From Rhodospirillaceae bacterium (GTDB lineage Bacteria; Pseudomonadota; Alphaproteobacteria; UBA6615), in assembly GCA_002713365.1 (NCBI GenBank), contig PASR01000003.1, positions 1 to 64,000 on the forward strand: DNA of 64,000 nt, given 5' to 3'. A program made the translations under genes and the position numbers. The notes under the pieces are model-generated. The model searched no databases and had not been told where the DNA came from. It worked only from the letters and a program-made list of their open reading frames with translations. The first letter of the stretch is position 1. Each line of letters begins with the position of its first letter. This document shows, piece by piece, positions 1 through 689 of the stretch.

Positions 1-324
1 ATAATTATTTATGCCGTCATCAATGAGGTCTTCCGTTAATCCTTCCCGCTTCGCCGAAGCAGATCGAACATTACCTCAATAGCTGCAATGAGCCTGCCGA
101 GACATAGAAACCCGGATAATTTCTTTCAGTTTGTGGTCTATACTGCCGGTTCCAAATGACGTTGTCCAAGCTATGTACATTGATTCCGCTAAGTCAATAT
201 TGTGACCCATCATAGCATGAAAACCCGGATCCGGAGCCTTATGCTTCAGACTCTGTTCAATATATGGCTTAAGCTTAGTCTTTTTTAGCTCTTCAATGTC
301 GAGCATCGTAATATTTGGGGCCAT
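1..324 (-). CDS. AhpD/carboxymuconolactone decarboxylase-like protein, probable selenoprotein (CxxU), 3' end beyond window
   Basis: The start is ATG at 324, with AGGAG seven bases upstream. The first 82 codons give a CMD/AhpD-type fold ending in RQAHCSY. An in-frame TGA (76-78) then sits exactly where the family has the second Cys of its CxxC redox pair. After the TGA the frame stays open to the window edge for 25 codons and keeps family character (GNVRSASAK, then GLTEDLIDD). A hairpin 20 nt after the TGA fits a bacterial SECIS element, so the TGA is read here as selenocysteine. Family members use the pair for alkylhydroperoxidase or disulfide chemistry. A thioredoxin gene lies 38 bp upstream on the same strand. 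The alternative is a nonsense-mutated gene. The rest of the gene is outside the window. Confidence 0.75.
44..63 (-). promoter_or_regulatory. Putative bacterial SECIS hairpin downstream of in-frame UGA
   Basis: On the minus strand the five-base stem GCTTC/GAAGC closes a three-base GGC loop (48-60). A C-G pair and two G-T pairs extend it to eight pairs (44-63). The loop starts 21 nt after the UGA at 78-76, and its first two bases are G. Known bacterial SECIS elements have the apical loop roughly 16-37 nt after the UGA with a G in the first two loop positions, so the geometry fits SelB-dependent recoding. It lies inside the coding sequence, as bacterial elements do. Confidence 0.7.
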
Positions 325-362: not shown

Positions 363-689
363 TTAGGCATAAGTTTCAACTAATTTTTTAATCACCTGTC
401 GCCTGTCAACTCCAGTTCTGGTTTCAACCAATTCACCATCTTTAATAAACAAAAGTGTTGGTGTTGTTCTGATGTTAAAGCGTTCTAGAAGTTCTATATT
501 ATCTTCTGCTTTTACACTACCTATAGTGACATCATCTGGCACTTCTTCCACCAACTGCTTCAAAATTTTAGCTAATTGACGGCAAGGGACACAAGACTCT
601 GACCAAAAATCAATTACCGTTAATCCTTTTTGATTGATTACATCTCTTTCAAAATTATGTTGACTAAACTTTTTAAAACCTTCTAGCAT
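363..689 (-). CDS. Thioredoxin-family protein (CVPC active site)
   Basis: This 108-residue single-domain protein has the length of classical thioredoxin. The active site is W29-SES-C33-V-P-C36, so CVPC replaces the usual CGPC. The cis-proline loop (RTTPTLLFIKDG) is present in the C-terminal half. There is no signal peptide, so it should act in the cytoplasm as a dithiol reductant. It lies 38 bp upstream of the AhpD-like selenoprotein candidate on the same strand, and the two are probably co-transcribed. The CxPC variant with Val may shift its redox potential or partner choice. The name trxA is withheld because a housekeeping thioredoxin is likely to lie elsewhere in the genome. Confidence 0.85.
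   Translation of the reverse strand: MLEGFKKFSQHNFERDVINQKGLTVIDFWSESCVPCRQLAKILKQLVEEVPDDVTIGSVKAEDNIELLERFNIRTTPTLLFIKDGELVETRTGVDRRQVIKKLVETYA

Follow-up and report, generated by a model that had tools for sequence, protein, structure and literature searches.

A probable AhpD/CMD-like selenoprotein at a contig edge of a Rhodospirillaceae genome and the Cys-less tandem partner of its relatives

Does the TGA that closes a short reading frame at the very edge of a bacterial contig stop translation, or does it encode selenocysteine (Sec), and what would the resulting protein do? The window, i.e., the whole stretch of 64,000 nt analysed here, is the beginning of contig C1 of assembly G000 (G000:C1:1-64000; 19 contigs, 2.5 Mb). 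On the minus strand, ORF 324..76 codes for 82 residues, the last of them being ...RQAHCSY, and is followed by a TGA (78-76), which stands where a CxxC motif would have its second Cys. Downstream of the TGA, 25 open codons (GNVRSASAKREGLTEDLIDDGINNY) reach the window edge, and since the window starts at position 1 of the contig, the gene (gene A hereafter) runs off it. The features are as follows.

1..324, minus strand: gene A, probable AhpD/CMD-like selenoprotein, residues 1-108 of about 207; truncated by the contig start
76..78, minus strand: in-frame TGA, putative selenocysteine U83 in C80-S-Y-U83; based on TGA in 51/51 genes and the presence of selA/B/C/D
46..62, minus strand: SECIS-like hairpin, stem of 6-7 bp, loop GGC; based on invariant synonymous sites, one covarying pair and the predicted fold
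363..689, minus strand: thioredoxin-like protein with CVPC (PF00085, E 1.7e-20), 38 nt upstream of gene A

Searching bacterial and archaeal genomes yielded 51 related loci, one of which ends before the site. In each of the other 50 this codon is TGA and the frame continues, which with the window included makes 51 of 51 genes, far more than chance would produce; the sampled genomes of the window's own family have TGA as well. Complete homologues are mostly 200-225 residues long, and the protein is conserved on both sides of the codon and for about 120 residues past it. The records belong to Alphaproteobacteria, Betaproteobacteria, Nitrospinota and Ca. Tectomicrobia, with one each from Gammaproteobacteria and Chloroflexi; these are MAG labels, and Bordetella parapertussis (two loci) and Devosia (one) were taken as labels only. 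The subfamily is widespread in the first four groups and perhaps in Chloroflexota, and no relative was found in plasmid records. It is highly probable, judging from the sequences compared, that gene A does encode a selenoprotein, with UGA codon 83 decoded as Sec to give a CxxU oxidoreductase. Routine annotation of this Rhodospirillaceae genome would then miss a real selenoenzyme.

As expected of a bacterial selenoprotein, the same genome contains the full sel gene set. Contig C2 carries selA (600 bits), selB (475 bits), the tRNA-Sec gene selC (67.8 bits) and selD (295 bits), all above the cut-off and all within 11 kb, and the tRNA-Sec has the anticodon TCA (ARAGORN), i.e., UCA. Among the 32 searched genomes carrying A, selA was detected in 28, and the four misses may reflect incomplete assemblies. 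In L052, about 2.3 kb separate the end of a selB gene from A, which lies downstream of it.

The original prediction also proposed a SECIS-like hairpin 20 nt after the TGA. The hairpin is conserved in the relatives, but the distance needs correction: the stem GCTTC begins 15 nt after the TGA, and it is the GGC loop that lies at 20 nt. A G thus opens the apical loop within the 16-37 nt expected of bacterial elements. None of the 51 genes departs from the codons GCT-TCG-GCG-AAG, whereas those around them mostly vary; third positions are free in codons 1-4 after the TGA, and variation returns beyond the run. The four codons are still invariant in 28 representatives with less than 85% DNA identity, from loci of 34-73% GC. 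Elsewhere in these genes GCT makes up 10% of Ala codons, TCG 30% of Ser, GCG 42% of Ala and AAG 51% of Lys, and from naive codon usage the run has p = 0.006 in each gene, with genes treated as independent. The next-to-outer stem pair covaries without a break (CG in 20, UA in 19 and UG in 6); as it switches among C-G, U-A and U-G, the encoded residues alternate between KR and KQ accordingly. Because the tree offers at most four pairs for independent switches, for which a sign test reaches no significance, the invariance of synonymous sites is the stronger argument. The folding energy of the window hairpin alone is ordinary (z -1.13, not significant), so that the support is comparative; single-hairpin energies in general were not clearly separated from those of shuffled sequences, L052 excepted. 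No family in a general Rfam scan matches the element, and the RF00031 search is uninformative, since its controls gave no match either. Judged from the alignment, the hairpin is under strong constraint at the RNA level. On this comparative basis, SelB together with the Sec-tRNA(UCA) would decode the UGA at codon 83 as directed by the hairpin just downstream.

The protein scores above the gathering score (23) of the Pfam CMD family PF02627, with 27.4 bits for the window part and 32.9 bits for the full-length relative at L012. An AlphaFold2 model of A is helical (pLDDT 82), its best solved structural match being 6k40 (Z 15.7, rmsd 2.7, 175 residues), and by this model A is of the AhpD/CMD fold. 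For the AhpD core domain TIGR00778, scores of 16.6-17.5 bits fall below the cut-off of 27.8. The best named-family matches for all 19 full-length members scanned are TIGR01926 (peroxidase-related enzyme) and NF053654 (YciW-related (seleno)protein), whose active-site column is as in A; the L012 protein scores outside both, with 33.3 bits against a cut-off of 81.8 for the former and 42.5 against 310 for the latter. In the canonical AhpD site, a Glu precedes the first Cys of the CxxC motif by 12 residues, and a His follows the second at a distance of 3-4. Gene A keeps E68, C80 and U83, matching the AhpD Glu and CxxC, but the His is absent and an invariant R87 stands at +4.

Exchange of Sec for Cys at this column is found at a distance. 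In much weaker homologues, which score 45-78 bits, the motif at these columns is CxxC, and one of these proteins shows a further TGA; the TGA of A thus falls on a redox position that is Cys in related proteins, as in other bacterial selenoproteins. Among strong homologues (above about 110 bits), none with Cys for Sec was found in 385 genomes of the class and 398 of the phylum (partly overlapping sets), and the strong TGA-less homologues whose site was read are a paralogue, B, described below. The A subfamily therefore seems, in everything sampled, to be Sec-only and never to swap Sec for Cys; such subfamilies are informative on why Sec is retained. Besides the homologues read at that site, a further strong homologue of A (G208:C7:38024-38476; 106.7 bits, no internal stop) lies apart from the A-B pair.

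AhpD-like proteins with CxxU are a known kind of selenoprotein, and the original statement that they occur in marine metagenomes is borne out by published reports. CxxU AhpD-like, CMD-domain selenoproteins were published from the Sargasso Sea in 2005 (PMC1088965), 'AhpD-like 1' (COG2128) and 'AhpD-like 2' (pfam02627) from GOS in 2008 (PMC2398784), and AhpD-like selenoproteins are listed in a 2026 review (PMC13188914). As described there, these families resemble A in their kinship to AhpD/CMD, the CxxU motif, the bacterial SECIS-like hairpin, the Cys homologues and the marine origin, but many Cys homologues were reported for them whereas the A subfamily has none in the sample. The A subfamily may be among them, since it is set apart here by descriptions and not by sequence comparison. 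In the portion of the selenoprotein literature covered, with families compared by description, neither a tandem partner lacking Cys nor an AhpD-like subfamily restricted to Sec was found mentioned. The Sec-only subfamily, the position of B next to A, and the thioredoxin upstream in the window's family and some others thus appear, within that portion, to be undescribed.

B follows A directly in 46 of the 47 loci that extend far enough to show it, across several phyla, often with a stop/start overlap of a few bases or a gap of a few bases. It has about 180 residues, is homologous to A over nearly the whole length and has the same predicted fold. At the position of C80 it has Asp in 39 of 40 aligned sequences, and at that of U83 either Phe (35) or Ser (5), while the counterparts of H64, E68, R71, R87 and S88 are retained in 40 of 40. 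Such a uniform loss of both redox residues does not resemble decay. These sequence patterns suggest that B probably joins A in a mixed oligomer, where it would be a non-redox subunit with a structural or substrate-binding role, and a conserved B without redox residues offers a direct, testable handle on function. A more specific version, in which A and B make up an obligate hetero-oligomeric selenoenzyme, B shapes the substrate site, the operon thioredoxin recycles the enzyme and the reaction is possibly dehalogenation rather than peroxide reduction, is tentative and rather less probable than not. Alternatively, A could act alone as an ordinary peroxidase, and B could be a duplicate that has diverged to a redundant or unrelated function. 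Homo-oligomers do occur among AhpD-type enzymes, and B is missing in L012 and perhaps in the window genome, which would agree with such independence; the adjacency of the two genes across phyla, often with overlapping stop and start, and a loss of redox residues unlike decay both argue against it, and we regard it as rather unlikely.

By analogy with AhpD, A would most likely be a selenol/thiol oxidoreductase that the thioredoxin recycles, B being its putative non-redox partner. The selenolate of U83 would attack an oxidised substrate, which could be a peroxide, a disulfide or another electrophile; C80 would then resolve the intermediate, and the resulting selenenylsulfide would be reduced again by the CxxC thioredoxin encoded upstream. 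The original reading as a selenol peroxidase or disulfide enzyme is likewise an inference from fold and motif. The thioredoxin gene is kept upstream of A in 12 fetched loci and in the relative G376, and its product is the likely reductant of A; the adjacency is absent in many loci, and the genes found upstream of A in others encode a class-III aminotransferase, an HMGL-like lyase or a cupin. It is also conceivable, though improbable, that A is a reductive dehalogenase with Bmp8- or deiodinase-like chemistry instead of a peroxidase. The debrominase Bmp8 (PDB 6ohi) shares with A the AhpD-like fold and the CxxC column, where it has Cys and A has Sec; it is the nearest solved sequence by profile (E 9e-13) and also the best fold match of B, and Sec is suited to deiodinase-like chemistry. 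However, the likeness does not extend beyond the core that AhpD proteins share, with about 18% identity across the structural match, other AhpD structures equal or exceed Bmp8 by fold, and the conserved neighbours give no pointer to halogen chemistry.

The comparative data refute the reading of the TGA as a real stop, whether of a pseudogene or of an 82-residue protein, or as a sequencing error. Gene A does appear as an 82-aa ORF in the standard listing of the window, and TGA terminates 12 of its 57 long ORFs; against this stand the same codon in 50 other genes of several phyla, with frame and protein conserved well beyond it, and the agreement of two contigs of the assembly across the TGA. 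With the full-length L012 relative as query, the second half of A was located in the same genome, at the end of contig C8. The ends of C1 and C8 share an exact 99-nt overlap inside A (window 1-99 = G000:C8:89831-89929), TGA included, and their join gives a protein of 207 residues ending at a TAG. The original description of the TGA and of the open frame after it, which agrees with the ORF listing, therefore holds beyond the contig edge: contig C8 supplies an uninterrupted CMD-family C-terminus, and no further stop codon precedes the TAG. Mis-assembly was rejected as the source of the TGA region, since C1 and C8 agree and the relatives carry the same codon; it is possible for the joined full-length protein. 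A genome-wide reassignment of TGA, e.g., to Trp, independent of selenium, would also leave the frame open but is likewise refuted, as TGA is a normal stop in the window (the same 12 of 57 ORFs) where TGG is common, several homologues use TGA for Sec and then as the final stop, distant homologues show Cys and not Trp at the column, and the Sec machinery is complete. Nineteen other TGA-interrupted frames of the window with redox-like motifs were read as noise from their position and sequence.

The shared 99-nt contig ends fit an assembly break caused by a repeat or a variant. The close relative at L009:4001-5914 has an array A-B-A', in which A and A' share an identical stretch of 296 nt in the second half, the result of a recent duplication or gene conversion. 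Since its start lies 42 nt past the TGA, the stretch takes in a part, but not the whole, of the segment where G000 breaks. As such a repeat could break or collapse an assembly inside A, which is seen as a break in G000 and possibly also concerns L012, the window genome may be A-B-A' with the middle missing, or B may have been lost; none was found in the fragmented G000, nor in the genome of L012 when searched. The joined 207-residue protein could accordingly be a chimera of A and A'.

Two details concern other selenium-related genes of this genome. The selD gene at L077:1944-4166 (G000:C2), adjoining tRNA-Sec, carries an NAD(P)H-dehydrogenase-like domain as a fusion (motif MRCGGCGAK), apparently the Ndh-SelD form known from GOS (PMC2398784). 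A second AhpD-like gene with an in-frame TGA and CxxU (NGCKYUISHN) lies at G000:C14:300-755 (L124), with an orthologue, also with TGA, at G102:C1:562129-562599. It resembles A in its AhpD-like nature, CxxU and TGA, but it differs in keeping the His after Sec, in scoring only about 48 bits to the B profile and in its locus.
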